A stretch of DNA of 63,887 nt. Origin: an uncultured Methylococcaceae bacterium (lineage in GTDB: Bacteria > Pseudomonadota > Gammaproteobacteria > Methylococcales > Methylomonadaceae). Of the stretch, positions 35,900-52,321 are shown piece by piece (the first letter of the stretch is position 1; each line of letters opens with the position of its first letter). The stretch spans positions 1-63,887 of the forward strand of contig CAIOMN010000097.1 of NCBI GenBank assembly GCA_903859415.1, written 5' to 3'. Both the position numbers and the translations under genes were made by a program. Under the pieces are notes generated by a model. The model did no database searches and was not told the DNA's origin. It saw only the letters and a list, made by a program, of their open reading frames with translations.

Positions 35900-36278
35900 T
35901 TTATCTAAAACAGTAATAAACTTACGCTGTCCTAATTTATAACCTTTTGGCCAATCAGCTTCCAAGCGCGCCTCCCCCCGTATTAAGTCAGTAGACTTTT
36001 AATGTAACCAAAACTTATGTTCTTGTGCAATTTTATCACAACAACAAAACACAAAACCTATTAAGAAAATAAAACAGAGGGATTTATTAATCAAGGTGCA
36101 AATAAACCAGTAACAGGTTCATTTACACCAATCACCGCCATTCAAATTTTTATCCCAATAACAATGTTTTCCATTTAATACAAGATAATCATAGCATTAA
36201 AGACTTTGTAAATATTGGCATAGTAATCGCTTGTTTATTTGTAATTTTTAAATACTATTGTCAATACCGAGGATTTTT

Positions 36279-37925
36279 ATGAGTAAAGCTTCATTATCTA
36301 CGTTACCTAAAACAGGTTTCGATGGATTAAAAGAAAACTGGCGCAGTGATTTATTATCAGGATTTCTGGTTTTTCTAATCGCTTTGCCTTTGTGTCTTGG
36401 TATATCAATGGCATCGGGGTTCCCGCCCTCTGCTGGTATCATCACGGCTATTATTGGCGGCATGTTAGTTTCTCGCATTAACGGTTCATTTATAACCATC
36501 AATGGTCCTGCTGCGGGTTTAATTGTGGTCGTACTGGGCGCAGTTCAAGAACTTGGCGAAGGCGATGCCATGGCAGGTTATCGTTATGCCTTGGCTGCTA
36601 TAGTCGTTGCCAGTGCCATACAAGTTTTAATGGGGGTATTTAAAGCCGGTCGATTAAGTTCATTTTTTCCGGCCTCTGTTGTACATGGTATGTTAGCAGC
36701 TATTGGTATCATTATTATGGCTAAACAAATCCATGTCATGCTGGGAACAACGCCAGAAAAAGGCAGCAGTTTATTTTCCACAATTGCTCAGATTCCACAC
36801 AGCTTATTAAATCTTAACTATGAAATTGCTATTATTGGCTTCACGGGCTTAGCCATTTTAATTGTTTGGTCTTTTATAAAAAACTCCACCTTGAAGATGA
36901 TTCCAGCGCCTTTGGTTGTGGTATTAGTCGGTATTGGTCTGGCTAAATACTTTGACTTAGACCATGAACACATGTACTTATTTCTGCCGGATGCGGCCAT
37001 TCTACCCCATCATGAACAAACAGTAGGGCCGAGATTCTTAGTCGCTATCTCAGAAAACTTCATGTCCAGCTTCTATTTTCCTGATTTCTCAAAACTACCA
37101 ACACTGGAATTCTGGGAAGCCGTCATCAGCATCAGCCTGGTCGGTAGTTTAGAAAGCTTACTCAGCGCCATGGCTGTTGATAAATTAGACCCTTATAAAC
37201 GTCACTCCAATCTGGATCGTGACTTAACTGCTGTCGGGGTCGGTAATCTTGTATCAGGATTAATCGGAGGTTTACCCATGATCGCCGAAATTGTCCGTAG
37301 CTCTGCTAACGTCAATAATGGTGCAAAAACTCAATGGGCTAATTTCTTCCACGGCACTTTTTTACTGTTGTTTGTCGTCCTGTTTCCTCGCCTTATCCAC
37401 AGCATTCCTTTAGCAGCACTTGCCTCTCTATTGGTTTTCACTGGTTTTCGTTTAGCATCACCCTCCTCGTTTGCTCATGTCATGGGTATTGGCAAAGAAC
37501 AGTTATTTATGTTCGTTGTGACCATTATCGGGGTGTTGGCAACTGACCTATTAATAGGCGTTGCAATAGGCATTCTAACCAAACTGATTATTCATATAAT
37601 TCGCGGTGTTAAATTAAACAATTTATTTAAAATTAGCTTTGTAATAGAAAATAAAGATCCCAATACGATTATTGTCAGTGTCGATGGAGCCGCTATTTTT
37701 TCTAACTTTATAGCACTTAAAACTGGCTTAGCCAATGTAGCTAAAGGCAAGTCAATTATTTTTCAAATGAATAATACCTATCTGATTGATCATACGGTTA
37801 TGGAGTATTTTCATGACTTTCAGCACAATTATGAGGAAAGCGGTGGCTCCGTCACTTTTGTTGGAATGGATAAACACGAGGCATTCTCAAAACATCCTCT
37901 GGCTGTTCGTAGAATAAAATCCTAA
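36279..37925 (+). CDS. SulP-family anion transporter (copy 1)
   Basis: The 548-residue transporter has the SulP membrane core (GFLVFLIALPLCLGISMASG, the TM3 GSFITINGPAAGLI site, and DLTAVGVGNLVSGLIGGLPM) and a C-terminal STAS domain (about 440-545). SulP proteins move sulfate, bicarbonate or other anions. I start at the ATG at 36279 behind a GAGG site; an upstream TTG at 36258 is less likely. A second, clearly homologous SulP gene follows, then a Hyf-like operon. GLKENWRSDLLSGFLVFLIA is nearly identical to copy 2, so they arose by duplication. Confidence 0.93.
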   Translation: MSKASLSTLPKTGFDGLKENWRSDLLSGFLVFLIALPLCLGISMASGFPPSAGIITAIIGGMLVSRINGSFITINGPAAGLIVVVLGAVQELGEGDAMAGYRYALAAIVVASAIQVLMGVFKAGRLSSFFPASVVHGMLAAIGIIIMAKQIHVMLGTTPEKGSSLFSTIAQIPHSLLNLNYEIAIIGFTGLAILIVWSFIKNSTLKMIPAPLVVVLVGIGLAKYFDLDHEHMYLFLPDAAILPHHEQTVGPRFLVAISENFMSSFYFPDFSKLPTLEFWEAVISISLVGSLESLLSAMAVDKLDPYKRHSNLDRDLTAVGVGNLVSGLIGGLPMIAEIVRSSANVNNGAKTQWANFFHGTFLLLFVVLFPRLIHSIPLAALASLLVFTGFRLASPSSFAHVMGIGKEQLFMFVVTIIGVLATDLLIGVAIGILTKLIIHIIRGVKLNNLFKISFVIENKDPNTIIVSVDGAAIFSNFIALKTGLANVAKGKSIIFQMNNTYLIDHTVMEYFHDFQHNYEESGGSVTFVGMDKHEAFSKHPLAVRRIKS

Positions 37926-38016
37926 CTCGTATTAATTGCATAACCGTTTCTAGTGATATAGTTGCGATTTAAACATCTTTCCGAGCCGCACTACATGACT
38001 ATGAATAAGGAACTTT

Positions 38017-39612
38017 ATGTATAAACCATCTCTTCCAATGACACCCAAAACTGGCCTGGAAGGGCTAAAAGAAAATTGGAGCTATGACTTATTATCCGGG
38101 TTTATGGTTTTTCTTGTTGCCTTGCCTCTCTCTCTGGGTATATCTGTCGCGTCTGGGTTTCCACCTTCGGCAGGTATTATCACTGCTATCATCGGAGGCT
38201 TATTAGTATCTCGAATCAATGGCTCTTTCCTAACAATCAATGGCCCTGCTGCGGGCCTGATTGTAGTGATTTTAGCCTCTGTCCAAACATTGGGCGAAGG
38301 CGATGCAATGGCCGGCTATCGATACACCTTAGCGGCCATCGTAGTAGCCAGCATCATACAAGTCATATTAGGAATAACTAAAATGGGGCAGCTTAGCTCA
38401 TTTTTTCCTACTTCGGTGGCTCATGGAATGCTTGCAGCCATTGGGATTATTATTATAATCACACAAACTCATGTCATGTTAGGAGCCAACGTAGAATCTC
38501 GAAACCTGTTTTCAAATATCTCGCAGATTCCGCATAGCTTAATTCACATGAAGCCCGACATCATTCTAATCAGTTTTTTAAGCTTACTTATATTGACTAT
38601 TTGGCCTTTAATTAATAGCCGCATACCCAGTGCAGTTATCGTTATTCTGATAGGTATCCTCTTTGCCGAGCATTTTAATTTAACTCAAAGTACTGATGTC
38701 AGCCCAGTTAACTATTTAGTTGCAATTCCAGACAATTTTCTTGCCAACTTTTACTTTCCAGATTTTACAAAAATCACCCGCTTATCTTTTTGGGGATCCG
38801 TCCTTAGCATAAGCCTAATAGGCAGCCTCGAAACTATTTTAGTAACCTCCGCAGTAGACAAGCTTGATCCTTATAGAAGAAACTCTAATTTGGATAGAGA
38901 TTTAACAGCCATAGGAATTGGCAACATAGTCGCAGGTTTGTTGGGTGGCTTACCGATGATTGCTGAGATTATACGTAGTTCGACTAATATAAATAACGGC
39001 GCTAAAACAGCTTGGTCTAACTTTTTTCATGGCTTGATTTTGTTATTTTTCGTCGTATTTCTAAGCAGCTTTATACAAAAAATCCCTTTAGCTTGCTTAG
39101 CAGCACTGCTTGTATACACTGGATATCGCCTAACCTCCCCTAAGACATTTGACAATATTAAAAAAATCGGAAAAGATCAACTGTTATCCTTTGTTGCCAC
39201 CATCATAGGCGTCTTAGCAACCGACTTATTAACTGGCGTCGCCATTGGTATTTTTGTTGAACTTGTTATCAACTTGACAAGAGGTGTCTGGCCGTCTAAT
39301 TTGTTTAAAATTCACTTTACCATTAGCCAGCAAGCCAATAATACTTTTGTTATTAAGTTATTAGGTTCAGCTCTATTTTCAAATATTTTGCCCTTGAAAA
39401 CAGCACTGGCCAAACTATCACCTGGAGATAAAATAATCTTCGATCTCACAGACGGTTATTTAGTTGACCATAGCGTAATGGAATTTCTTGCTAATTTTAA
39501 AAGACAACTTGAAGAACAAGGCGGGCAGTATCAACAAGTAGGCAACACCATTAAAACATTTTCAGATCATACATTAGCTGCCAGATTAATGACTGCAGAC
39601 GAAAGAAAATGA
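38017..39612 (+). CDS. SulP-family anion transporter (copy 2)
   Basis: The 531-residue paralogue of the preceding gene has the same architecture: a 14-helix-type core with SFLTINGPAAGLIVV and RDLTAIGIGNIVAGLLGGLPM, and a STAS domain (about 430-520) with DLTDGYLVDHSVMEF. The two copies differ most in the 160-240 region and the STAS domain, which suggests divergent regulation or substrate. An AAGGAA site precedes the ATG. It lies 96 bases before hyfB, so it may belong to the same transcription unit. Confidence 0.92.
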   Translation: MYKPSLPMTPKTGLEGLKENWSYDLLSGFMVFLVALPLSLGISVASGFPPSAGIITAIIGGLLVSRINGSFLTINGPAAGLIVVILASVQTLGEGDAMAGYRYTLAAIVVASIIQVILGITKMGQLSSFFPTSVAHGMLAAIGIIIIITQTHVMLGANVESRNLFSNISQIPHSLIHMKPDIILISFLSLLILTIWPLINSRIPSAVIVILIGILFAEHFNLTQSTDVSPVNYLVAIPDNFLANFYFPDFTKITRLSFWGSVLSISLIGSLETILVTSAVDKLDPYRRNSNLDRDLTAIGIGNIVAGLLGGLPMIAEIIRSSTNINNGAKTAWSNFFHGLILLFFVVFLSSFIQKIPLACLAALLVYTGYRLTSPKTFDNIKKIGKDQLLSFVATIIGVLATDLLTGVAIGIFVELVINLTRGVWPSNLFKIHFTISQQANNTFVIKLLGSALFSNILPLKTALAKLSPGDKIIFDLTDGYLVDHSVMEFLANFKRQLEEQGGQYQQVGNTIKTFSDHTLAARLMTADERK

Positions 39613-39708
39613 TGACGATGGATGTAATCCAACCTAACTTATTCTTAAACTATATTGTTCAACCACTATGACTTTAATTTTCAGATTTAATAACTCAGTG
39701 AGACAATC

Positions 39709-41835
39709 ATGATCTTATTTTCAGCTTATCTCGCAGTACTACTAAGCTTTGCCTCAGGTTTGTTAGCTCTAATCGTTAATCAAAGGCATCTATTACAATC
39801 ATTAAGTGATTATAGCTTTAACAAATTATTTAAAAACCAACCCCAACCTCAGGCTTGGGTTAATATGAACCTTGAAATACAGCATTTCCCTGCATTTCTG
39901 AGACAAGCAGTATTTATTCTACTCGGTTTATCAGGTTTATTTGCTGTTATTGCTGGGCTGGCAGTACTGATAAGTAATCAAGTCATTACTGACCAAATTC
40001 CTTTAGGCTTACCTTGGCTACCTTGGCATATACGTTTTGACTGCTTATCTGGTTTCTTTTTTCTGATTATAGGCATTGGTGTTTTTGCTGTCAGCCTCTA
40101 TGGCCCAGGCTATGTACGATCTTATAAAGAAAACCAACACCCTTTTGCCAGCTTGGGATTATTTACCGGCTTATTTGTCGCTGGAATGTTATTAGTGCTC
40201 TTAGCTGACGACGCCTTTATGTTCATGATCGCGTGGGAGCTCATGTCTGTCGCAAGTTATTTTCTCGTCGCATTTCAACATGAGCACGCAGCTAATCGCC
40301 GAGCTGCCTTCCTCTATTTGTTAATGGCTGAAGTCGGTGCCTTAGCGATTATTCTTGCGTTTGGCGTATTGGCAAGCTTTTCCGATGGCTTCACTTTTGA
40401 TGCCTTACGAGAGTCCAGGCTATCGGTGACGTGGTCCAGCATTGCGTTCGTACTGGCCCTTTTAGGGTTCGGCATGAAAGCCGGTATAGCTCCCATTCAT
40501 GTTTGGTTACCCGAAGCTCATCCAGTGGCTCCTTCCCATATTTCGGCATTAATGAGCGGTGTTATGCTCAAAGTGGCTATCTATGGTTTGATTCGTTTTT
40601 GCTTTGATTTACTCAGTGAAGTTCAGTGGCAATGGGGAGTCGTGTTAATCATACTGGGTACCGTCTCGGCACTAGCCGGTATTCTGTATGCCATGATGCA
40701 ACCTAACCTTAAACGACTTTTAGCCTACAGTTCTGTTGAAAATATTGGCATTATTTTTATGGTGCTGGGTTTGACAATGATTTTTATGGCAACAGGTCAC
40801 CCTCAGTTAGCGGCTTTAGGTTTACTGGCGGCTTTATTTCATGCCTTTAATCACGCTCTATTTAAGAACCTACTGTTTTTAGGTGCAGGTATTCTTCAAC
40901 ACCAAACCCATGAACTCAATATTGACATGATGGGCGGACTCATTAAGAAAATGCCCCAAACGAGTCTATTGTTTTTAGTGGGCTGCATGAGTATTTCATC
41001 GTTACCTCTATTTAACGGCTTTGTCTCCGAGTGGTTAGCTTTTCAAACTGCCCTACAGGTTGATGTCCTGGATAACGGCGTATTACGCAGCTTAATTCCA
41101 GTAGCAGCAGCCGCCTTGGCTTTAACAGCCGCCTTGGCTGCTGCCTGTTTTGTCAAAGTGTTTGGGCTTATTTTCTTGGGCCAACCCCGTTCACATCATA
41201 GTGAAAAGGCCCATGAGGTACAAAATAAATTCATGTTGGCAGGGCCTGCCTTACTCGCTGGCTTATGTTTTTTTATTGGTATATTTCCCAGTACCATTAT
41301 TTATCTAATCAATAATGCGTCTGGTCAACTACTTGGACAAACCTTACCAAATAACAACCTGCTTAGCTGGCTATGGCTTGCGCCTGTTTCAGCTCATCAA
41401 GCCTCTTATTCTCCACCCTTGGTGCTTATCGCTGCCCTCATAGCGGCAGGCATTTGCTATAGTTATTTTCGTCGGAATCCTTTAACGACCGTCCGTAGAG
41501 CTGAAACATGGGATTGTGGCTTTGGTGGTCTGACACCCCGTATGCAATATACATCCAGTTCTTTTACCATGCCGTTTCGTCGAATTTTCGAAAAGGTATG
41601 GATTATTGATGAACAAATCCATAAAGATATGAAAGGAGCCATGAATCAGGACGTTTCTGCGGTGCATTATCAACTTCATATTCATGACCATAGTTGGCCA
41701 CACATATACTCTCCCATTGCTCAGGCTGTTAATGATCTGGCAAGGCAAGTAGGCCGCATACAAACAGGTAATATCCGAACTTATCTGGGTTATTCCTTTG
41801 CCACGCTGTTGATTTTATTATGGTTGATCAGTTGA
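39709..41835 (+). CDS. hyfB: Hydrogenase-4 component B-like antiporter subunit (HyfB/NuoL-like)
   Basis: The 708-residue, about 16-helix protein belongs to the Mrp/NuoL proton-pump family: FMIAWELMSVASYFL, GFGMKAGIAPIHVWLPEAHP (key Lys and His), LLAYSSVENIGIIF, and FHAFNHALFKNLLFLGAG. The C-terminal extension ending with WDCGFGGLTPRMQYTSSSF is specific to HyfB/HycC. It should translocate protons or sodium. It leads the six-gene complex. Confidence 0.9.
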   Translation: MILFSAYLAVLLSFASGLLALIVNQRHLLQSLSDYSFNKLFKNQPQPQAWVNMNLEIQHFPAFLRQAVFILLGLSGLFAVIAGLAVLISNQVITDQIPLGLPWLPWHIRFDCLSGFFFLIIGIGVFAVSLYGPGYVRSYKENQHPFASLGLFTGLFVAGMLLVLLADDAFMFMIAWELMSVASYFLVAFQHEHAANRRAAFLYLLMAEVGALAIILAFGVLASFSDGFTFDALRESRLSVTWSSIAFVLALLGFGMKAGIAPIHVWLPEAHPVAPSHISALMSGVMLKVAIYGLIRFCFDLLSEVQWQWGVVLIILGTVSALAGILYAMMQPNLKRLLAYSSVENIGIIFMVLGLTMIFMATGHPQLAALGLLAALFHAFNHALFKNLLFLGAGILQHQTHELNIDMMGGLIKKMPQTSLLFLVGCMSISSLPLFNGFVSEWLAFQTALQVDVLDNGVLRSLIPVAAAALALTAALAAACFVKVFGLIFLGQPRSHHSEKAHEVQNKFMLAGPALLAGLCFFIGIFPSTIIYLINNASGQLLGQTLPNNNLLSWLWLAPVSAHQASYSPPLVLIAALIAAGICYSYFRRNPLTTVRRAETWDCGFGGLTPRMQYTSSSFTMPFRRIFEKVWIIDEQIHKDMKGAMNQDVSAVHYQLHIHDHSWPHIYSPIAQAVNDLARQVGRIQTGNIRTYLGYSFATLLILLWLIS

Positions 41836-41896
41836 TGAATAATAAAACAACAATGACAAAGATTATTCAAATACCCCTAAATGAGGGAGAAATAAT

Positions 41897-42841
41897 ATGA
41901 ACTGGTTAATCGCCATTTTGCAAGGTGCGTTATTTATCATCCTCGCTCCCTTGTTAGCCGGTTGGCTCAAGTACTGTAAATGTCATTTACAAAATCGTAA
42001 AGCACCATCATTACTTCAGCCTTATCGGGATTTAATCAAATTATCCAATAAACAACCCGTAGTTTCGGATCAAGCCTCCTGGTTATTTATTACAGCACCC
42101 TATCTTATATTCTCTGCCACAGCTCTGGCAGCAACCGTTGTTCCGTTGGTTGTTGTAGATCTCCCCACCTCAGCTAGTGCGGATGTAATTGTGATGGTGG
42201 GTTTTTTTGCATTCGCCCGATTTTTTCTGGCTTTAGCCGGTTTAGACATTGGCACCGCATTCGGAGGCATGGGTTCATCCAGAGAAATGACCATCTCTTC
42301 ATTAGCCGAGCCAGCCATGTTGATGGCCATTTTTACTCTGACTATGACCGCCTCGACAACTAATCTATCGGGTGCTATCGCTCATGTTTTAAATGAGGGG
42401 CTAGTGTTGCGACCCTCTTTCGTATTTGCACTCTTTGCACTTATCCTGGTTGCTGTTGCTGAAACTGGACGCATTCCCGTAGATAACCCATCAACGCATC
42501 TAGAATTAACCATGATTCATGAAGCAATGATCCTGGAATACAGCGGGCGCTATTTAGCGCTGATTGAATGGGCGAGCCAACTTAAGCTCATGTTATACGG
42601 TGTATTAATCGCAAATATCTTTTTTCCCTGGGGAATTTCGGAAACCCTTAACCCTAAAGACCTTGGCTATGGACTACTTGCCATTTTAGGAAAGCTAGCC
42701 TTACTCGCTATATTTCTCGCCATTGCAGAAACCCTGGTTGCAAAAATGCGTTTATTTCGAGTACAGGAGTATCTTAGTTTTGCCTATTTATTAGGCCTGC
42801 TAGGTATGTTGAGTCACATCATTTTAGAGGCATCTCGCTAA
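41897..42841 (+). CDS. hyfC: HyfC/NuoH-like membrane subunit
   Basis: The 314-residue protein has eight predicted membrane helices and the NuoH/HyfC markers PSLLQPYRDLIKLSNKQPV, GGMGSSREMTISSLAEPAML and VAVAETGRIPVDNPSTHLELTM with the conserved Glu residues that line the quinone or proton path. It joins the membrane arm to the soluble subunits. A GAGGGAG site precedes the ATG, and its stop overlaps the hyfE start by one base (TAATG). Confidence 0.92.
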   Translation: MNWLIAILQGALFIILAPLLAGWLKYCKCHLQNRKAPSLLQPYRDLIKLSNKQPVVSDQASWLFITAPYLIFSATALAATVVPLVVVDLPTSASADVIVMVGFFAFARFFLALAGLDIGTAFGGMGSSREMTISSLAEPAMLMAIFTLTMTASTTNLSGAIAHVLNEGLVLRPSFVFALFALILVAVAETGRIPVDNPSTHLELTMIHEAMILEYSGRYLALIEWASQLKLMLYGVLIANIFFPWGISETLNPKDLGYGLLAILGKLALLAIFLAIAETLVAKMRLFRVQEYLSFAYLLGLLGMLSHIILEASR

Positions 42842-43518
42842 TGAATATCGAACAAACCGACTTTTATACACAGGCGATTTTATCGATAGCCGCTTTAATA
42901 GGGCTCATGTCATTTCTCATGCTCGGTCAAAGCCGCTTATTACGCTTAATCTTTGTGTTTGCTTTACAAGGTTTTTTATTAACTTTAACCACTTCATTAG
43001 CCGCTCACAGCTTACATAACCCTCATCTGTATATTTCAGCGGCACTTACTTTAATACTAAAAGTCATTTTTATTCCCTGGATGTTAAGACGAGAAGTTTT
43101 GCATATGAACATACATCGAGATGTTCAGACCTTAAAAAATAAAACCTTTATAATGCTTGGTGGTGCTAGCTTAATGGTATTCAGTTACTACGTGTTACAC
43201 CCGATAGTACAAACTACGGCACCCGTCATGCTAAATGCGCTAGCGGTTAGCCTTTCCGTTGTCTTATTAGGTATGCTATTAATGATCTCACATCGCCAGG
43301 CGGTAGCTCATGTCGTCGGCTTTATGTCTATAGAAAATGGATTATTTTTTGCGGCAATCGTTGCGACTAAAGGCATGCCAATGGTTGTTGAATTAGGTAT
43401 TGCCTTTGATGTTTTAGTTGCAGCCGTACTGTTTGGTATATTTTTCTTACATATAAGAAGCAGCATCGACTCATTAGATGTCGACTTACTAAACCGTTTA
43501 AACGAGATTGAAAAATGA
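42841..43518 (+). CDS. hyfE: HyfE-like membrane subunit (NuoK-related)
   Basis: The 225-residue protein has about six to seven membrane helices and the HyfE pattern QSRLLRLIFVFALQGFLL, LKVIFIPWMLRR and VVGFMSIENGLFFAA with the NuoK-like buried Glu. It overlaps both neighbours (one base with hyfC, four bases with hyfF). Confidence 0.88.
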   Translation: MNIEQTDFYTQAILSIAALIGLMSFLMLGQSRLLRLIFVFALQGFLLTLTTSLAAHSLHNPHLYISAALTLILKVIFIPWMLRREVLHMNIHRDVQTLKNKTFIMLGGASLMVFSYYVLHPIVQTTAPVMLNALAVSLSVVLLGMLLMISHRQAVAHVVGFMSIENGLFFAAIVATKGMPMVVELGIAFDVLVAAVLFGIFFLHIRSSIDSLDVDLLNRLNEIEK

Positions 43519-44978
43519 TTGCCGCCTATTTTGTATTATTAATTCCATTGGCTGGAATTATTTTTTTCGCGATTGCTAACTCAAAAATGGACATGGGTAA
43601 GATCAATGTCTATTTTAATGCAATCTGTTTATTGGCAACCTTATGGTTAGCGATTAATGTTCTAAACCAGGGTACTATTTTATCGACTAGTAAAGCCTTT
43701 TTAGTTGACTCTTTTAATGTCTATTTAATTGTTCTTACCGCTTTTATTGGGCTGACAACCTCGATTTTTTCTGCACCTTATATGGCGCATGAAAAAGAAA
43801 TAGGCAAGCTAACCGATAGGCGCTTAAAGCTTTATTACACCATGTATCAAGGCTTTATGCTGGCCATGTACCTGGTATTAACCACCAACAATCTAGGAAT
43901 CATGTGGGTTGCTATGGAGGGTGCAACGCTAGCGACTGTTTTATTAGTGAGTTTATATCGTACTCCAGAATCGATTGAAGCCGCCTGGAAATATTTTATT
44001 CTTTGTGGTGTTGGTATTGCTCAAGCCTTATTCGGCACTATCTTGCTGTATTACGCTGCCATGCAGATTGGAGATGGAAGTAATGCCTTACTCTGGTCAG
44101 TTCTTTATGAAAATGCCCAGCAATTAAATCCTGAAATACTTGAAATTGCCTTTGTGTTTCTTCTTATTGGCTATGGCACCAAAATTGGCCTGGTTCCTCT
44201 TCACAACTGGTTACCTGATGCGCATTCAGAAGGCCCAACACCGATGTCAGCCGTTTTATCAGGCCTATTATTAAATGATGCCTTATATGCTGTGGTAAGA
44301 AATAAAATGTTAGTTGATGGGACAACTCACAGTAACATTGCCGGCTATTTAATGATGGGCTTTGGCTTACTGTCATTCTTGGTCGGTGCATTATTTTTAC
44401 ATCGGCAAAAAGACATTAAACGCCTTTTCAGTTATTCTTCAATTGAGCATATGGGAATGATGACGTTTGCCTTTGGCATCGGTGGATCTCTTGCAACTTA
44501 CGCCGCACTACTGCACATGACCGTTCATTCCTTAACCAAATCGGCTATTTTTGTAACTGTGGGCCATGCTGCACAAATTGCAGGCACTCAACGCATTGAA
44601 AAAATCCGCGGACTCATAAGAACCCAACCCCAAGTTGGTTGGGGCTTATTAATAGGTACGCTTGCCATCGCGGGTTTTCCACCTTTTGGCGTATTTACCA
44701 GTGAATTCCTTGTACTATTAGCAACCATGCATAGCTATCCGTGGTTAGCACCTTTAGTACTGCTAGGTATCGGCATTGCTTTCGCTGGACTATTCCGACA
44801 TATACAGCCCATTGTTTATGGTGAAAGACCGGAGGGACAATTACCTGTAAAAGCCAACTTATGGCCAGTTATCATTCATTTAGGCCTGGTATTATGGCTA
44901 GGTCTTTCAATACCGGGATTTCTAGCTCACTGGTTTTCTCAGGCAACCGTGTTAATTTCAGGGAGTGCGCCTTTATGA
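43515..44978 (+). CDS. hyfF: HyfF-like antiporter subunit (NuoN/M-like)
   Basis: The 487-residue membrane protein is a second Mrp-type pump: NNLGIMWVAMEGATLATVLL, GYGTKIGLVPLHNWLPDAHS (pump Lys/His), and RLFSYSSIEHMGMMTFAFG. It is the HyfF counterpart. Starting with an ATGA overlap at hyfE and ending with an ATGA overlap with hyfG, it shows tight translational coupling of the operon. Confidence 0.9.
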   Translation: MIAAYFVLLIPLAGIIFFAIANSKMDMGKINVYFNAICLLATLWLAINVLNQGTILSTSKAFLVDSFNVYLIVLTAFIGLTTSIFSAPYMAHEKEIGKLTDRRLKLYYTMYQGFMLAMYLVLTTNNLGIMWVAMEGATLATVLLVSLYRTPESIEAAWKYFILCGVGIAQALFGTILLYYAAMQIGDGSNALLWSVLYENAQQLNPEILEIAFVFLLIGYGTKIGLVPLHNWLPDAHSEGPTPMSAVLSGLLLNDALYAVVRNKMLVDGTTHSNIAGYLMMGFGLLSFLVGALFLHRQKDIKRLFSYSSIEHMGMMTFAFGIGGSLATYAALLHMTVHSLTKSAIFVTVGHAAQIAGTQRIEKIRGLIRTQPQVGWGLLIGTLAIAGFPPFGVFTSEFLVLLATMHSYPWLAPLVLLGIGIAFAGLFRHIQPIVYGERPEGQLPVKANLWPVIIHLGLVLWLGLSIPGFLAHWFSQATVLISGSAPL

Positions 44979-46561
44979 GTTCTTCAAATTGGACATCGGA
45001 CTTTTTAAATCAGCTGAAAAACGCTAATATATCTATCGTTATCTCGCCGCTTAATCAAAAAAGCCATAGTGAGCAATGGCAAATCAAGAGTCCGCATTGG
45101 AATGAATTTAGTACACTAGCTGTTGAACAGCAACTTCGCTGGGTTTCTGGTTGGGCAGAACATAAAGATAAGCAGTTTTTTATCAATGCCTGTTTTGAAA
45201 AAGCCGGTTTTTATATCGTGTTACGTACTCAAATCAATACGGACAATCCCGAGCTACCTTCTCAAGCGAGTGTGTATCCAGCCGCTAATCGGAGTGAACG
45301 CCACACTCAAGATATGTTTGGCATTCGCTTTATTGGACACCCCGATAACCGCCGCTGGACGCGACATCAGGCTTGGGGCAAACACAGTTACCCTTTACGT
45401 AAAGATTTTTCAGTAGACGGTGAACCAGAAGCCATTACACCCGCCGATAAAGACTACCCTTTCATTAAAGCTCATGGAGCTGGGGTTTATGAAATTCCTG
45501 TCGGGCCTGTTCATGCTGGCATTATCGAACCCGGTCATTTTCGCTTTTTAGCAGTCGGTGAATTGATCTTAAATTTAGAAGAGCGCTTAGGCTATGTCCA
45601 TAAAGGCATTGAAAAAATTGCTGAAGGTCGTTCACCCGAGTCTTTAGCCCGTTTAGCTGGCCGAATTTCGGGGGATACAACCGTCGGACACACGTGGGCA
45701 GCCTGCATGGCTATGGAACAGGCCGCCAATATCGAGATCCCAATACGAGCCGCAGTAATCCGTGGCGTTTTAGCAGAACGCGAACGAATAGCCAATCATC
45801 TAGGTGATATGGGAGCCATATGTAACGACGTTGCCTTTGTCTTTGCGCAAATGCAATTTACCCGTTTACGTGAAAATTGGTTACGCTCGAACGTGCTGGT
45901 CTTTGGCCATCGCCTATTAATGGACATTATTGTGCCTGGTGGTGTCAAAAGTGACCTGTCAGCGGCTTCAATAGCTTTAACTAAAAAAGATATTACCCAG
46001 TTAAAAGTAGAGCTTAATGAAATTATGCCCATCATAGACCTTAATTCATCTCTTGAAGATCGACTTTACACGGCAGGGTATTTATCCCCTGAGATAGCTG
46101 CGGCTTTTGGTACCTTAGGCTATGTCGGTCGGGCAAGTGACCAGGATTATGATGTTCGCCGTGATGCTGCTTATCCTCCTTATGACCAAGTAGAATTTAA
46201 AGTTGCATTAGAAAATCAAGGTGATATTGCATCAAGATTCTGGGTGCGTTACAAGGAAATCCTATCATCTTTAAAACTGATGAATCAATTGTTATCCCAA
46301 CTAACCGATGGGGAGATCTTAACTGAATGGCAACCGCCCCAAAATGACTCAGAAGGCTTAGGTATTGTTGAAGGCTGGCGGGGCGAGATTACAACCTATG
46401 TTCGTTTCGAGGCCGATAACAAAATCACTCGTTTTTATCCACGAGACCCCAGTATTATCAACTGGCCAGCTTTGGAAAAATTAACACTTAACAACATTGT
46501 GCCAGATTTTCCCGTCTGTAATAAATCTTTAAATGGCTCTTACTCAGGCAACGATTTATAG
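44975..46561 (+). CDS. hyfG: HyfG-like large subunit (NuoCD-type) lacking NiFe ligands
   Basis: Starting at the ATG at 44975 the protein has 528 residues: a NuoC-like domain (about 55-150, with RSERHTQDMFGIRFIGHPD) and a NuoD/hydrogenase-large-subunit domain (165-528, with EIPVGPVHAGIIEPGHFRF). True group-4 hydrogenases carry an L1 CxxC here and an L2 DPCxxC near the C-terminus. This protein has SGDT (232-235) and DPSIINW (491-497), so the NiFe centre cannot be bound. That places it with the Ehr-type complexes rather than active hydrogenases. Confidence 0.92.
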   Translation: MSSSNWTSDFLNQLKNANISIVISPLNQKSHSEQWQIKSPHWNEFSTLAVEQQLRWVSGWAEHKDKQFFINACFEKAGFYIVLRTQINTDNPELPSQASVYPAANRSERHTQDMFGIRFIGHPDNRRWTRHQAWGKHSYPLRKDFSVDGEPEAITPADKDYPFIKAHGAGVYEIPVGPVHAGIIEPGHFRFLAVGELILNLEERLGYVHKGIEKIAEGRSPESLARLAGRISGDTTVGHTWAACMAMEQAANIEIPIRAAVIRGVLAERERIANHLGDMGAICNDVAFVFAQMQFTRLRENWLRSNVLVFGHRLLMDIIVPGGVKSDLSAASIALTKKDITQLKVELNEIMPIIDLNSSLEDRLYTAGYLSPEIAAAFGTLGYVGRASDQDYDVRRDAAYPPYDQVEFKVALENQGDIASRFWVRYKEILSSLKLMNQLLSQLTDGEILTEWQPPQNDSEGLGIVEGWRGEITTYVRFEADNKITRFYPRDPSIINWPALEKLTLNNIVPDFPVCNKSLNGSYSGNDL

Positions 46562-46570
46562 GATTCGGAC

Positions 46571-47095
46571 ATGCTAAAACTTTTATTTAAATCTCTAAAA
46601 ACCGGCATTGCTACTGAACGTTGTAAAGTACCTAAAGATAACGAGCTGGAAGCTTTAGGTATAGAAATTAAACGTCACATCGATAAAAAGTTTTCTGGCA
46701 GCATTGCCATCAGGCAAGTTGATGCGGGTTCCTGCAATGGCTGTGAACTTGAAATACATGCTCTCAACAATCCTTATTATGATATTGAGCGCTTTGGTAT
46801 TCACTTTGTGGCATCACCTCGACATGCTGATGTTTTATTAGTGACTGGCCCCGTATCCCGTCACATGCAAACGGCTTTATTGCGTACTTATGAATCAACA
46901 CCTGACCCCAAATGGGTTATTGCGGTGGGTGATTGCGCGACCTGTGGCGGAGAATTTGGCGTTTCTTACGCCAGTTGCGGTGCTGTTTCAAACGTCATTC
47001 CGGTTGACATGACCATTGCAGGTTGCCCACCCACCCCAATAGCGTTAATGAAAGGTTTACTTGGATTGATTAACTTGCCAAAAGGAAAGGTTTAA
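46571..47095 (+). CDS. hyfI: HyfI-like small subunit (NuoB-type)
   Basis: The 174-residue protein keeps four cluster ligands of the proximal [4Fe-4S] cluster: Cys55 and Cys58 (SCNGCELE), Cys122 (GDCATCGG) and Cys152 (AGCPPTP). It would pass electrons to or from the large subunit. The N-terminal 40 residues are a HyfI-like extension. It is the last gene of the complex; no HyfA- or HyfH-type ferredoxin subunit accompanies it. Confidence 0.92.
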   Translation: MLKLLFKSLKTGIATERCKVPKDNELEALGIEIKRHIDKKFSGSIAIRQVDAGSCNGCELEIHALNNPYYDIERFGIHFVASPRHADVLLVTGPVSRHMQTALLRTYESTPDPKWVIAVGDCATCGGEFGVSYASCGAVSNVIPVDMTIAGCPPTPIALMKGLLGLINLPKGKV

Positions 47096-47142: not shown

Positions 47143-48087
47143 ATGGCTAACCATCAGCACGCTCATTGTGAACATCACCACCCGACACCTCATCAGCAAG
47201 GACGCACGTTTGGCATCGCCATTTTTCTAAACCTTAGCTACGTCGTGGTTGAATTTTGCTATGGTTTGATAACCAACTCGACTGCTCTCATTGCCGATGC
47301 GGGCCACAATATCTCGGATGTTTTAGGCTTATTATTATCTTGGGGCGCCATCGTTATGGCCCGTAAGAAACCCAGTGAACGCTATACCTATGGCTTACGC
47401 AGCACCTCTATTCTGGCGGCACTCGCCAACAGCATGCTGTTACTGGTTGCTTGTGGAGCCATTGCTTGGGAAGCGGCACACCGTTTTGCAGCGCCGCCTG
47501 AAATAGCTGGATTAACCGTATCAATCATTGCCGGCATAGGTATTTTTATCAATGGACTGTCCGCACTGCTATTAATGAAAGGCAGTAAAAGTGATTTAAA
47601 CCTACGAAGTGCTTATTTGCACATGGCAGCTGATACCGCAGTATCAGCCGCTGTCGTTCTCGCTGGCTTTGCCATGCTGTACGACAACTGGTATTGGTTA
47701 GACCCTGTGATGAGTCTGATGATTGTAACTGTCATTGTCATCGGTACTTGGAGCTTATTACGTGAAGCATTAAAGCTCGCCTTAAGTGCAGTCCCAACAC
47801 ACATTAATTTATCTGAAATTAATACCTATTTAAGTCAATTAACGGGAGTTACCGAGGTTCATGACTTACATATCTGGGGATTAAGCACCACAGAAAACGC
47901 GCTCACTGCGCACCTGGTCATTCCCAGCGGCCACCCTGGTGATCAATTTCTTGATGAGATTGTATTAACCTTAAAAGACCATTACGCCGTTCATCACAGT
48001 ACCTTACAAATTGAATTAGAGTCTACAAATCATACGTGTGCATTAATTCACAGTCATCCTACAGCTCATTCTCACCATCATCATTAG
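47143..48087 (+). CDS. Cation diffusion facilitator transporter (CzcD/ZitB type)
   Basis: The 314-residue CDF exporter has six membrane helices, the zinc site residues in ALIADAGHNISDVLGL and HMAADTAVSAAVV, a C-terminal domain with VHDLHIWGLS, and histidine-rich ends (HQHAHCEHHHP at the N-terminus, SHPTAHSHHHH at the C-terminus). It probably exports Zn(II), Co(II) or Cd(II) with proton exchange. It lies 47 bases after hyfI on the same strand, but functional linkage to the complex is not implied. Confidence 0.93.
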   Translation: MANHQHAHCEHHHPTPHQQGRTFGIAIFLNLSYVVVEFCYGLITNSTALIADAGHNISDVLGLLLSWGAIVMARKKPSERYTYGLRSTSILAALANSMLLLVACGAIAWEAAHRFAAPPEIAGLTVSIIAGIGIFINGLSALLLMKGSKSDLNLRSAYLHMAADTAVSAAVVLAGFAMLYDNWYWLDPVMSLMIVTVIVIGTWSLLREALKLALSAVPTHINLSEINTYLSQLTGVTEVHDLHIWGLSTTENALTAHLVIPSGHPGDQFLDEIVLTLKDHYAVHHSTLQIELESTNHTCALIHSHPTAHSHHHH

Positions 48088-48097
48088 TCTTTAGCCG

Positions 48098-48360
48098 ATG
48101 TCTCGTTATGGAAATACCTTAAGCCAAATTCCAAAGAGTATTTGGGTATTAGGCTTCGTTAGCTTGTTGATGGATGTCTCTTCCGATGTTAATAGCGGCT
48201 GATATCGTTTTGGCAAATAGTCAGCACTGGAATATGCTATTATTCGGCATCTTACATCGGTGCAGCTTTTTGTGTACTCACCTTAGCCTGCTTACTTTGG
48301 TCAGGTCACCATAAAAATATAGTCAGACAAGGAGGATTAAACCTTGAAGAACATCAATGA
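48098..48360 (+). pseudogene. MFS transporter reduced to its two ends
   Basis: The first frame (48098-48202) encodes the family start IPKSIWVLGFVSLLMDVSSD before a stop. A second frame ending at 48358-48360 encodes YYSASYIGAAFCVLTLACLL, typical of the last helix and tail of MFS transporters. Almost 350 residues between them are missing. Its final TGA overlaps the ATG of the next kinase gene. No function is expected. Confidence 0.65.
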
Positions 48361-51300
48361 ATAGTCGGGGTGGTACGGGTTCGGAAACAACGTTACGTAA
48401 ACAGGCAGAGGACATTCTTCAGGGAAAGTCAGTGCAGTTATCGGAACAACTGAAGGCGTTGTCGCCCGAAGCAACCGAAGAACTCTTTCACGAGTTGCAT
48501 GTACATCAAATCGAACTGGAGTTACAGAACGAGGAGCTGCGCCAAATTCAGAGTGAACTCGATATTGCGAAGACACGTTTTTTTGGGCTTTATGATTTAG
48601 TGCCAGTTGCTTATCTCACGCTTTCCCATAACGGTTTGATTAAACAAGCCAATCATGCTGCAGCGACGCTACTGGGATTATCTCGGCGTAAGCTACTGAA
48701 TAAGCCGTTCTCCAAATTTATTCTCAATGCTGATCTAGCGCTTTACTACCCCTTCTATAAACTACTGCTTGAATCCAGAGAACAGCAGGTGCTTGATGTG
48801 CGGATGTTGAGCAACGATGGCATCCCATTATGGGTGCGTATGGAGGCTATTACAGCACAGGATGAAGTTGATGTGCCGAGCTTACGGATAACATTGACCA
48901 ATATTTCTGAGTTGATCATGACTGAAAAACGTTCGTTAAGACTCAATCATTTATATAGGGCCCTCGCGAATATCAATGAACAGATACTTCATGGTACTGA
49001 TGAGCAGCATATACTGGATTTTCTCTGTCGGATACCCATTGAAAGCGGGTTGATGAACATGGCCTGGATTGGTGTCGAAGACCAAGAATTTCATCGCATT
49101 ATACCCATTATTAAGTATGGACAAGGCCTTGACTATCTGGATTGCATCACTATTTCTACCGATGCAGATAGTCCAGAGAATCATTTGGCGGGGCAGGTTT
49201 ATCGTGAGAAAAAACACCTGGTTATTAATGACATTATCAACAGCCCTATTATGATCTCCTGGCGAAAACGGGCATTGCATCATGATTGGAACTCCACGGC
49301 CTGTTTCCCTGTTTTTCGGAATGGTGAGATCTATGTGGTTTTTAGTCTGTACCATTCAGACGTCAATTTCTTTGATGAGGAAGTGATCTCCTTAATCATT
49401 ACCTTGACCAACAATGTGTCTTATGCATTAAACAAGCTAGAGGCTACCCAAAATTTGATCCGTAGTGAAGCGCATAATCGATTGTTGTTGGAGTCTTCTC
49501 CTGCAGGTATTTTTGGGTTAGATACGCAGGGCAAAACTACTTTCGTTAATCCGGTCGCAGCAAATATGCTGGGTTATAATCCATCAGAATTGATGGGGAT
49601 CTCAATTTATGAAATGGTTCACCATAGCCATGCAGATGGTAGCCTCTACCCGATGGACACGTGCCCTATGTATGCCACCTTTCACGATGGTGTGATGAGA
49701 CATATCGACAATGATGTCCTCTGGCGTAAGGATGGCAGTCGCTTTTCCGTTGAATATACAACCCATCCCATTTACCAGAAAAATGCTTTATTAGGAGCCG
49801 TAATCGTTTTTCAGGACATCACTAAACGTGTACAGTCAGAGTTGGAGCTCAATGATTACCGCCTGCACCTTGAGCAACTGGTTGAAGCACGCACAACCGA
49901 GCTTGTAAAAGCGAAAATTGATGCTGAGTTTGCTAACCAATCCAAAAGCCTATTTCTAGCTAATATGAGCCATGAAATTCGCACCCCAATGAATGGTATT
50001 ATCGGGCTTGCCCATTTATTACAAGCACAGCTCGAACAACCCTCACACAAAGTCCAACTCAACAAGATCATGAGTTTGAGTAAACACCTGTTGGGCATAA
50101 TTGATGATATTCTCGACTTATCCAAAATCGAGGCCAATCACCTCGCGCTAGAAGAAAATAACTTTCTTATTTCCACAACCTTGAGTCAGCTCCTTAACAT
50201 CATTGCTAATCGTTTTAACGAGAAAGGCTTAACCCTCATCAAAGAAATCGATCCACGCCTGGACAAATTACCTTTGTTAGGTGATTCATTACGACTTAAC
50301 CAGATTCTGCTTAACCTCTTAAGTAACGCAATCAAGTTTACAGATCAAGGAAGCATTATTCTTCGTGCGACTCTATTTTCTGAAAATCAGAAGCTAGTAA
50401 CTTTACGCTTCGAGGTGCAAGATAACGGTATTGGGATTAACGAAGCCCAACAAAGCAAATTGTTTAATAACTTTGAACAGGCAGAAGCCTCAACGACCCG
50501 AAAATATGGCGGTACCGGCCTTGGGCTTGCGATTTCCAAGAAACTCACGAACATGATGGGTGGTGAAATTGGAGTGATTAGCCGTCTTGGAGAAGGCAGC
50601 ACTTTTTGGTTTACCGCCCTATTGAAACACGGTGATATGAGTCTATTGCCACAGGAGGTATTCATTTCTGAAGAAACAAAGTTAAAAATGGGAGCTTCTG
50701 TCCTTTTAGTAGAAGACAATGAAATTAACCAGGAGGTAGCTTTGGGAATTTTGGAAAGTTACGGAATAAAGGTTGATATAGCCATACATGGTGGCGAAGC
50801 CTTGGCAATGATTGTGCAAAAACAGTATGATCTGGTTCTGATGGACTTGCAGATGCCCGTTATGGATGGACTGGAAGCAACCCGCAAAATAAGACAGTTA
50901 CCTATTGGCCAAAATGTTCCTATTATAGCTATGACGGCCAATGCCTTTAAAGAAGACCGCTGGCACTGCATAGAAGCAGGGATGAATGATTTTGTTTCAA
51001 AGCCAGTCAATCCTGAACGGCTGTATGCTGTACTGGCACGCTGGCTCCCCCAAAATGGCTTAGACCTTCCTGATGAGACGAAGCCTCCAGATGCTCCTCC
51101 CCTTACCCAAGATACGAGCCTCTGTCTAATTGACCAAACAACTGGACTGAAATTTCTGAATGGTAATCTTGTTAGCTATCGGCGCATACTGTCTAAGTTC
51201 GCTGAGACTCATCTGTCAGACATCGATAAAATACAAATTGCGTTAGAAAATGGCGACCAAGCCAATGCAGAACGAACCGCCCATTCCCTAAAAGGCATTT

Positions 51301-51461
51301 CTGCTACACTGGGGATGGAAGCACTCCGAGCACTCGCCTACACTCTCGAAAAAAAGCTTCATGAGGGTTTACCTGCTACCGAACTGGAGACTGACTTCAC
51401 CTCGCTACGCGAAATGCTAGAGGCTGTGGGTGCAGAAATCCAGGTTATTAAGTTAAGTTAA
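48357..51461 (+). CDS. Hybrid histidine kinase (PAS-GAF-PAS-HisKA-HATPase-REC-HPt)
   Basis: The 1034-residue protein lacks membrane helices. In order it has an N-terminal helical region with an EELFHELHVHQIELELQNEEL motif common to such kinases, PAS (about 75-190), GAF (205-365), PAS (375-495), coiled coil, HisKA with NMSHEIRTPMN, HATPase with GGTGLGLAISK, a receiver (775-890) with LVLMDLQMPVMDG, and an HPt domain with the phospho-His in ERTAHSLKGISATLG. It forms a full phosphorelay in one chain. The nearest similarity in the window is the kinase at 1-1905. Its ATG overlaps the stop of the MFS remnant. Confidence 0.93.
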   Translation: MNSRGGTGSETTLRKQAEDILQGKSVQLSEQLKALSPEATEELFHELHVHQIELELQNEELRQIQSELDIAKTRFFGLYDLVPVAYLTLSHNGLIKQANHAAATLLGLSRRKLLNKPFSKFILNADLALYYPFYKLLLESREQQVLDVRMLSNDGIPLWVRMEAITAQDEVDVPSLRITLTNISELIMTEKRSLRLNHLYRALANINEQILHGTDEQHILDFLCRIPIESGLMNMAWIGVEDQEFHRIIPIIKYGQGLDYLDCITISTDADSPENHLAGQVYREKKHLVINDIINSPIMISWRKRALHHDWNSTACFPVFRNGEIYVVFSLYHSDVNFFDEEVISLIITLTNNVSYALNKLEATQNLIRSEAHNRLLLESSPAGIFGLDTQGKTTFVNPVAANMLGYNPSELMGISIYEMVHHSHADGSLYPMDTCPMYATFHDGVMRHIDNDVLWRKDGSRFSVEYTTHPIYQKNALLGAVIVFQDITKRVQSELELNDYRLHLEQLVEARTTELVKAKIDAEFANQSKSLFLANMSHEIRTPMNGIIGLAHLLQAQLEQPSHKVQLNKIMSLSKHLLGIIDDILDLSKIEANHLALEENNFLISTTLSQLLNIIANRFNEKGLTLIKEIDPRLDKLPLLGDSLRLNQILLNLLSNAIKFTDQGSIILRATLFSENQKLVTLRFEVQDNGIGINEAQQSKLFNNFEQAEASTTRKYGGTGLGLAISKKLTNMMGGEIGVISRLGEGSTFWFTALLKHGDMSLLPQEVFISEETKLKMGASVLLVEDNEINQEVALGILESYGIKVDIAIHGGEALAMIVQKQYDLVLMDLQMPVMDGLEATRKIRQLPIGQNVPIIAMTANAFKEDRWHCIEAGMNDFVSKPVNPERLYAVLARWLPQNGLDLPDETKPPDAPPLTQDTSLCLIDQTTGLKFLNGNLVSYRRILSKFAETHLSDIDKIQIALENGDQANAERTAHSLKGISATLGMEALRALAYTLEKKLHEGLPATELETDFTSLREMLEAVGAEIQVIKLS

Positions 51462-51489
51462 ACATTTTAATAGAGATCATTAATCGTTT

Positions 51490-51867
51490 TTATTTTAGGT
51501 CTCGCTTTAAAACGACACATGAGTAACCCCAAAACACAGCAACGCCCAACAAGGCTCCTAAGACATTAGCAATAGCATCATTAATAGAAAACTGTCGATT
51601 TGTTGTAAACCAAAGCTGAATAAATTCAAATAATAAGCCTATAGATGAACAAAAAAGAAATGCTATGAGTGAACTCATTCGGGATGACTTTGTAATCCCA
51701 TACGCTAGCATAATCAAAAAAGACATCCCAGAATAAGCTATGGCATGTTCTAATTTATCCAATTCGATACCAACTAACATGCTAGATCCAGGAAGTATCC
51801 ATGGATTAAAAGTTAAAAACGCTAAAATAACAACATAAATTAATAAAATACTTCTACTCAGAGTCAC
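51490..51867 (-). CDS. VanZ-like membrane protein
   Basis: The 125-residue protein has four membrane helices and the VanZ-type pattern LDKLEHAIAYSGMSFLI and GLLFEFIQLWFTTNRQFSINDAIANVLGALLG. VanZ confers low teicoplanin resistance in enterococci, but chromosomal relatives have unknown roles. It is convergent with the kinase on the left and divergent from the MASE1 kinase on the right. Confidence 0.82.
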   Translation of the reverse strand: MTLSRSILLIYVVILAFLTFNPWILPGSSMLVGIELDKLEHAIAYSGMSFLIMLAYGITKSSRMSSLIAFLFCSSIGLLFEFIQLWFTTNRQFSINDAIANVLGALLGVAVFWGYSCVVLKRDLK

Positions 51868-52321
51868 TAAAACATCCCGGATTTTTTGTATGTATGAAAA
51901 TCATCACAAGTAAGCATCATTATGTCGCTCAGAAACCAAATAAAATTGTCGATCAGATTAACATTAAATTTAAGTTATAAGTCATAAATACTTCGAAATA
52001 TTTTTCTAACGCTCCTCTTTAGCAAAGCACTTAGCTTTGAAAAAGGGATAATGGGTTAAATCAATAATCTACTATATAATTGATGCAAAGGCACGCTGTC
52101 ATTAATTCTTCTGTCTCCAGAGAAGCAATAAACAGTCCGTAATTTTGATTATTGCCATAAACACTGTATACCTTATTATCAAGGGCTAAGTGGAAAAGAA
52201 TCACTAGCCTAAACTACCACTTTAAAACTTATAAAAATATCGAATAGTTAAGCCCTGACTTAGGACTATTTGTTCATTTTACCCTAGTCTCATGGAATCA
52301 ATATTAGTCAAAAAAGGTTGA
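51868..52321. other. Divergent intergenic region
   Basis: This 454-base AT-rich gap between the VanZ-like gene and the MASE1 kinase shows no credible gene, RNA or repeat. It should contain both promoters, but I cannot place them with confidence. Confidence 0.5.

Follow-up and report, generated by a model that had tools for sequence, protein, structure and literature searches.

A six-subunit Ehr-type Hyf complex encoded beside SulP anion transporters in Methylococcales, a candidate inorganic-carbon supply module

Results

Organization of the SulP-hyf locus

We analysed the whole contig C97 (GenBank CAIOMN010000097.1; 63,887 nucleotides, hereafter the window) of an uncultured Methylococcaceae bacterium of the order Methylococcales (assembly GCA_903859415.1, the source genome; 3.72 Mb in 280 contigs), which carries two SulP-type anion transporter genes followed by genes for the six subunits of a Hyf complex that may together serve inorganic carbon supply. 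SulP1-SulP2-hyfB-C-E-F-G-I were consecutive and all on the + strand at 36279-47095, based on open reading frames (ORFs) and Pfam and NCBIfam matches, which bears out the tandem transporters, shared strand and tight overlaps described in an earlier reading of the DNA (the original prediction).

36279..37925, + strand: SulP1 anion transporter (PF00916, 212 bits; the ORF opens at 36258, with the likely start at ATG 36279)
38017..39612, + strand: SulP2 anion transporter (PF00916, 203.5 bits)
39709..41835, + strand: HyfB, antiporter-like membrane subunit (PF00361; NF005086, 827 bits, over the cut-off)
41897..42841, + strand: HyfC, NuoH-like membrane subunit (PF00146, 127 bits)
42841..43518, + strand: HyfE, membrane subunit (NF008556, 75.3 bits, below the cut-off of 136; position)
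43515..44978, + strand: HyfF, antiporter-like membrane subunit (PF00361; NF005045, 768 bits, over the cut-off)
44975..46561, + strand: HyfG, large subunit with 30-kDa and 49-kDa domains and without NiFe cysteines (PF00329, PF00346, PF00374; motif comparison)
46571..47095, + strand: HyfI, small iron-sulfur (FeS) subunit (PF01058, 110 bits; four cluster cysteines retained)

HyfE matched no Pfam family, and matched the NCBIfam hyfE model only below its cut-off. HyfC and HyfE overlap by 1 base, HyfE and HyfF by 4, and HyfF and HyfG by 4, with 9 bases between HyfG and HyfI, while gaps of 91, 96 and 61 bases separate SulP1 from SulP2, SulP2 from HyfB, and HyfB from HyfC, respectively. The HyfG start was corrected from an upstream in-frame ATG at 44861 to 44975, where the gene forms an ATGA overlap with hyfF. 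As originally predicted, no maturation, formate dehydrogenase or ferredoxin-type subunit genes were found among or directly beside the SulP-hyf genes, a result that covers the annotated genes at 36-48 kb, the remaining genome not having been searched for maturation genes.

The Hyf complex is of the Ehr type

The four NiFe-cysteine positions of HyfG were occupied by S, T, S and G in a motif comparison, in agreement with the predicted Ehr-like complex without a NiFe site. This loss was general: across an alignment of 162 HyfG rows, which includes our own sequence and draws on overlapping locus sets, none had more than one of these cysteines and 3 had one, compared to four in E. coli HyfG. The region of the former pocket was strongly conserved despite the loss of the metal, with a signature recurring in the rows inspected (GP(V/I)HAG(I/V/L)IEPGHF, mostly SGD(T/S), and a C-terminal NKS...SYxGxD(L/I)) that was partly variable in Kapaibacterium and Sulfurimonas members. 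The antiporter-like key residues Glu-Lys-Glu were intact in HyfB at 146-147 of 148 loci and in HyfF at 157 of 158 loci, and the four cluster cysteines of HyfI were retained at 153-154 of 154 loci; the source locus keeps all of these residues. The gene cluster thus combines all three marks of an Ehr complex (no NiFe cysteines, intact antiporter-like residues and a small-subunit FeS cluster) and has none of those of a group-4 NiFe hydrogenase, namely the four NiFe cysteines and, within the cluster, genes for ferredoxin-type subunits and for maturation. Because the NiFe site is lost, hyfBCEFGI is, judged by its residues, of the Ehr type: its pump and proximal FeS cluster look intact, it has no hydrogenase site, and the missing ligands in HyfG rule out a functioning hydrogenase.

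Ehr complexes described in the literature likewise have group-4-hydrogenase-like subunits and antiporter-like membrane parts and lack NiFe ligands (PMC6349859, PMC10284858, PMC7735108; here and below, statements refer to the portions of the sources that were accessible), and Acidithiobacillus ferrooxidans has a hyfBCEFGI cluster with the same gene letters that is classed as a non-hydrogenase (PMC7735108). The source locus differs from these in having SulP genes ahead of the complex and in having no adjacent gene for a partner that would feed in electrons, such as formate dehydrogenase; no electron-input subunit was recognised at the locus. Hydrogenase 4 (Hyf) and formate hydrogenlyase of E. 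coli have homologous B, C, E, F, G and I in the same order, whereas the source locus lacks counterparts of hyfA, hyfD, hyfH and hyfJ in addition to all four NiFe cysteines.

A formate system, with SulP moving formate or swapping it for bicarbonate and Hyf taking up formate electrons in the manner of formate hydrogenlyase, would fit both the closest solved structure to HyfG ('Formate hydrogenlyase subunit 5', 7z0s, 8.9e-66) and the position of formate as an intermediate of methane oxidation. We consider this explanation very improbable, as no formate dehydrogenase gene lies in or beside the locus, the NiFe site is lost, and the alternative partner of this SulP is DabAB (see below).

Some variants of the complex were seen at other loci. 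HyfI of a Kapaibacterium (L248, 9243-10010) has an N-terminal 4Fe-4S ferredoxin-like domain, a possible point of electron entry. Four loci of family f40 (L129, L132, L134 and L137) have a tandem pair of HyfB-like genes ahead of hyfC, and a gene for a 'YoaK family protein' lies divergently before hyfB on a Rhizobium plasmid (L116, 5504-6256) and a Burkholderia plasmid (L117, 5805-6587).

SulP family membership and likely ion

Both transporters belong to the SulP/SLC26 family (gathering score of PF00916, 23.2 bits) and share 61% identity in alignment. A profile of SulP1 relatives matched the structures PDB 5da0 and PDB 6ki1, the latter at 6.7e-29 and under the file title 'Low affinity sulfate transporter'; we take 6ki1 to be BicA. 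Although SulP1 and SulP2 belong to the same superfamily as the SulP-type bicarbonate transporter BicA, they scored 132 and 152 bits against the NCBIfam BicA model NF050096, far below its cut-off of 880. The nearest named relatives of SulP1 on the tree were from uncultured Methylococcaceae and Methylobacter metagenome-assembled genomes (MAGs).

The original prediction had left open bicarbonate or sulfate as the ion. Sulfate uptake, with SulP as a sulfate permease and its neighbours incidental, draws on the presence of sulfate permeases in the SulP family, yet neither SulP reached the cut-off of the sulfate-permease model TIGR00815, and the alternative partner is DabAB. Sulfate is also less likely because the source genome encodes a CysT-type sulfate permease over the curated cut-off, with a paralogue adjacent, and we give this explanation hardly any credence. 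Inorganic carbon is favoured over sulfate as the probable substrate by genomic association: DabAB is the alternative partner, hyf and dabAB occur together at two loci, and at a further locus (L242) a SulP/carbonic-anhydrase pair adjoins SulP-hyf.

SulP is found beside hyf throughout the family

We searched the 151 genomes of the family for HyfG and obtained matches in 81 at E values up to 1e-10; G027, G052, G054 and G121 were dropped as distant, probably NuoD-like matches, leaving 77 hyf-positive genomes including our own and 76 other regions to examine for a SulP gene within 2.5 kb of hyf, our definition of adjacency. SulP was present in 52 of the 76, absent from 17, and not assessable at 7 where the contig ended too soon. 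It lay upstream on the same strand at 49 of the linked loci, with two SulP genes in 12, and was divergent at 3. Among the 17 SulP-free loci, 4 showed hyfFGI alone, and at the two split operons examined for their SulP contig (G063 and G149) SulP1 stayed with hyfBCE. SulP1 was within 2.5 kb of DabA in 6 of the remaining 13, which also include G024, where dabA-dabB follow hyfI, and L078, with two short, weak SulP fragments upstream and nothing more.

Elsewhere in Methylococcales, 12 hyf loci were examined (11 of 37 genome matches plus one plasmid locus), of which 6 had SulP, 2 of them between hyfF and hyfG, 4 had none and 2 were too short. SulP lay between hyfF and hyfG, and not upstream of hyfB, at L176 (G596), L177 (G590) and L252 (Methylocaldum sp. 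14B). The frequency within the family indicates that adjacency goes beyond chance, which is ruled out by this conservation together with the repeated pairing described next.

DabAB is an alternative partner of the same SulP subfamily

An alignment of seven hyf-linked SulPs then served as the query against named genomes, and we used the best 80 of 554 relatives. Within 2.5 kb, 25 of these 80 were beside hyf, 18 were beside dabA or dabB, none were beside both, and 37 had neither partner (19 had flanks of 4 kb or more on each side, and the flanks of the other 18 were shorter). Among the same 80, DabAB-partnered SulPs came from Bacteroidota, a Kapaibacterium, a Pirellulales MAG and Methylococcales, and hyf-partnered SulPs from Methylococcales, Methylocystis, a Hyphomicrobiales MAG, a Sulfurimonas MAG and another Kapaibacterium, such that two Kapaibacterium genomes have related SulPs beside dabAB (L245) and beside hyf (L248). 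A contig near-identical to the hyf-SulP contig of the Sulfurimonas MAG (L257) occurred in a Mariprofundaceae MAG (L236); since their SulPs are identical and their flanking ORFs near-identical where both are present, the two probably represent one mis-binned population, to be counted once.

Phylogenies of SulP (104 rows) and HyfG (89 rows), built with a quick method and SH-like approximate likelihood-ratio (SH-aLRT) support only, conflicted for Methylocystis, Sulfurimonas and Kapaibacterium. HyfG of Methylocystis shared a starred group of 25 rows with Rhizobium and Azospirillum, and 19 rows of this group lacked SulP; the Methylocystis SulP, by contrast, clustered with those of Methylococcales. 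The Sulfurimonas SulP grouped with a Bathymodiolus methanotrophic symbiont and its relatives, with its HyfG far out, and the Kapaibacterium SulP (L248) was placed in a mainly DabAB-linked clade; long branches were flagged for L248, L257 and others, and the HyfG positions of these two are unsure. On the SulP tree the Hyf and Dab labels required at least 7 changes, or twenty with 'none' as a third state, and on the HyfG tree the SulP label required nine changes, at least 8 of them forced by starred branches. This disagreement between the trees indicates that similar SulP genes have joined unrelated hyf clusters repeatedly and independently, as reconstructed from these phylogenies.

At G146 the order is SulP-SulP-hyfBCEFGI-dabA-dabB-DUF2490. 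The source genome has two DabA loci elsewhere with complex-I-type partner genes (C58:74710-79025 and C29:6-3167, one of them cut by a contig end), and the combination of DabA (PF10070) and DabB was absent from the genes of the source locus.

Regulation and neighbouring genes

A candidate promoter element precedes SulP1.

36216..36231, + strand: sigma-54-like promoter element TGGCATAGTAATCGCT before SulP1 (one mismatch to the consensus)

The consensus TGGCATAATAATTGCT was found at the same position in the close relatives L039 and L193, and a window-wide scan for sigma-54 sites was not above chance, so that the case for this element lies in its location and in its relatives. Compared to single-letter shuffles, sigma-54-like sites before SulP1 occurred at 23 of the 45 loci where a kinase or NtrC was matched (1.5 expected) and at 18 of 94 others (3.1 expected), in locus sets that overlap (L198 and L058 are one contig) and with some histidine-kinase (HK) labels resting on weak matches of 24-31% identity. 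Strict sites within 200 bases among the best 80 of 554 SulP loci numbered 3/25 for Hyf, 1/18 for Dab, and 4/19 and 2/18 for the others, compared to 1.5% of random windows, so that these motifs give no more than a hint of a promoter common to Hyf-linked and Dab-linked SulP genes. HK matches were present at 24 and DUF2490 relatives at 34 of the 76 family hyf loci. At L226, SulP-DabAB is likewise flanked by both, and in G146 a DUF2490 gene comes after dabB. The kinase-adjacent regulator carries a sigma-54 activator domain, and the source genome has a pair of HK and NtrC-type regulator genes on contig C229. SulP-hyf expression is probably under the control of sigma-54 and an NtrC-type regulator.

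A cation exporter gene follows hyfI.

47143..48087, + strand: CDF cation exporter (PF01545, TIGR01297)

The exporter is also downstream at L039, L042 and L043. Terminator-like patterns on the + strand were absent from the intergenic gaps from SulP1 through the exporter gene; those in this interval were all intragenic and the next was at 48247, which would allow a single transcript, possibly shared by the exporter with SulP-hyf. On the 5' side of SulP1 are secA and two minus-strand ORFs that resemble LptG/LptF by eye alone, and at 48357-56662 are two big ORFs (1034 and 1446 aa) that look hybrid-sensor-kinase-like by eye, the second containing a kinase-like match. L193 (9992-14647) has secA, SulP1, SulP2 and the CDF exporter in the order of the source locus with the hyf genes missing, a hyf-free version of the locus. 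L215 (10001-18802) has SulP1, a lone HyfI fragment about 4 kb downstream and then HK and NtrC genes, and looks like a decayed hyf cluster.

Discussion

We propose, with confidence and doubt in about equal measure, that the locus is an inorganic-carbon supply module in which Hyf takes the genomic place held elsewhere by DabAB, with its proton-motive-force (PMF)-driven CO2 hydration, beside the same SulP. SulP1 and its copy SulP2 would import bicarbonate, and HyfBCEFGI would act as an Ehr-kind redox-linked pump of H+ (or Na+): electrons from a soluble donor would enter at the FeS cluster of HyfI and pass to the former NiFe pocket of HyfG, where quinone may be the acceptor, while HyfB and HyfF would translocate ions, such that the complex energises or pH-balances the accumulation of bicarbonate. 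From the genomic patterns we infer the ion, the molecules that donate and accept electrons, which way the coupling runs and any physical contact. The original prediction, in which the complex may drive SulP transport or be driven by it, is partly supported and is narrowed from bicarbonate or sulfate to inorganic carbon. The proposal also accords with cryo-electron microscopy of DAB2, which is described as a carbonic anhydrase coupled to the PMF and having a membrane subunit that resembles complex I (PMC13144422). Co-occurrence also speaks for it: among the 151 family genomes, 132 had SulP1 at E values of at most 1e-120, including 76 of 77 hyf-positive and 56 of 74 hyf-negative genomes, and 95 of 98 genomes with DabA compared to 37 of 53 without, and SulP1 was within 2.5 kb of DabA in at least 24.

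Several observations weigh against this proposal. The co-occurrence statistics ignore phylogeny, and the presence of hyf was independent of that of DabA (p = 0.5), so hyf is no simple replacement of DabA; such genome-by-genome replacement is further unsupported by the loci G024 and G146, where dabA-dabB directly follow hyfI and DabA has its own DabB. Thirteen of the 151 genomes have SulP1 without hyf or DabA. Carbon genes were also rare near hyf: tblastn of DabA, DabB, RuBisCO and E. coli Can (other carbonic-anhydrase classes not being searched) against 142 hyf loci gave DabA matches at 2, each in genus g24, no RuBisCO match, and one weak Can-like match (L055, 26% over 156 residues), after DabB matches below 350 bits were discarded because HyfB and HyfF are related to DabB. 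A general link of all hyf loci to carbon genes is thus unsupported, as is autotrophy as the reason for the module, with RuBisCO matches in 5 of 151 family genomes and none found in the source genome by that search; any carbon supplied would feed other carboxylations. Pfam found neither a carbonic-anhydrase nor a DabA domain in the six Hyf subunits. Adjacency is rare outside Methylococcales, where SulP was present at 1 of 45 assessable hyf loci (L161; 40 with enough flank and five plasmid loci, L116-L120). The underlying phylum sample had HyfG matches in 73 of 398 genomes, our own included, and 49 of the 72 others were examined, 20 of them from family f40, with 23 omitted, among them the ten weakest. 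The pairing the original prediction described is conserved in the family, arose several times and is not unique to one genome, but is not widespread beyond the order. Finally, the support for the proposal comes from genomic patterns.

The near-absence beyond the order, together with the 19 partnerless SulPs with at least 4 kb of flank, indicates that the Hyf complex has no fixed SulP component. The near-absence also fits an explanation by co-regulated neighbours without coupling, in which SulP carries bicarbonate unaided and the Ehr complex serves as a general redox proton pump or pH balancer needed under the same conditions. The 44 of 45 loci without SulP, the 13 genomes with SulP and neither partner, and the common HK-NtrC and DUF2490 neighbours and sigma-54-like sites are compatible with co-regulation alone. 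We nonetheless regard it as rather unlikely, as members of the SulP subfamily repeatedly joined unrelated hyf lineages, in Methylocaldum and its relatives by inserting between hyfF and hyfG, and as SulP remains with hyfBCE after the operon is split, which suggests more than shared regulation.

Alternatively, CO2 could be hydrated vectorially by the Ehr complex itself, the catalyst being either the emptied NiFe pocket or a carbonic anhydrase encoded elsewhere, and SulP would add bicarbonate uptake. Two known systems offer models. DabB, like HyfB and HyfF, is a complex-I-type, antiporter-like subunit (PMC13144422); DabAB (DAB1/DAB2) moreover adjoins the same SulP subfamily, in the position that Hyf holds at other loci. 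The cyanobacterial NDH-1MS is a complex-I relative serving CO2 uptake (PMC4786724), a likeness in idea. The strong conservation of the HyfG pocket region would also fit a catalytic role. However, the source locus has no DabA homologue and no recognised Cup-type CO2-hydration subunit, most hyf loci have no linked carbonic anhydrase, and hydration by six subunits without a carbonic-anhydrase domain would be of an undescribed kind. We accordingly judge vectorial hydration by the complex improbable, and powering SulP is the simpler reading. Unlike DabAB, the six-subunit Hyf complex is probably redox-linked, because it includes an FeS subunit.

Published backing for a role in carbon supply is thin. 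A Methylococcus study proposes bicarbonate import by SulP and, in its accessible portion, mentions neither hyf nor Dab (PMC11423575), and the hyf cluster of Acidithiobacillus caldus, which adjoins a beta-carbonic-anhydrase gene, was interpreted as a hydrogenase (PMC3826726). Within the accessible portions of open-licence PMC papers, we found none linking hyf or Ehr with both SulP and DabAB, and no established function for Ehr complexes apart from Mbx of Pyrococcus. We more tentatively suggest, with the balance somewhat against it, that SulP and the Ehr complex form a further class of energised inorganic-carbon uptake besides NDH-1MS and DabAB, in which the emptied NiFe pocket hydrates CO2 vectorially or the complex powers SulP. 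From the gene neighbourhoods, such a class would be common in gammaproteobacterial methanotrophs and would have arisen by separate assembly events in Methylocystis, a Sulfurimonas-type genome and a Kapaibacterium.

Because one SulP subfamily lies next to an Ehr complex at some loci and next to DabAB at others, the function of the Ehr complex becomes directly testable. If inorganic-carbon supply is indeed its role, one Ehr group would gain a function, and a redox-linked route of inorganic-carbon supply would be added in the methane oxidisers of a family that rarely has RuBisCO, with bearing on CO2 recapture by methane oxidisers and on methanotroph biotechnology.

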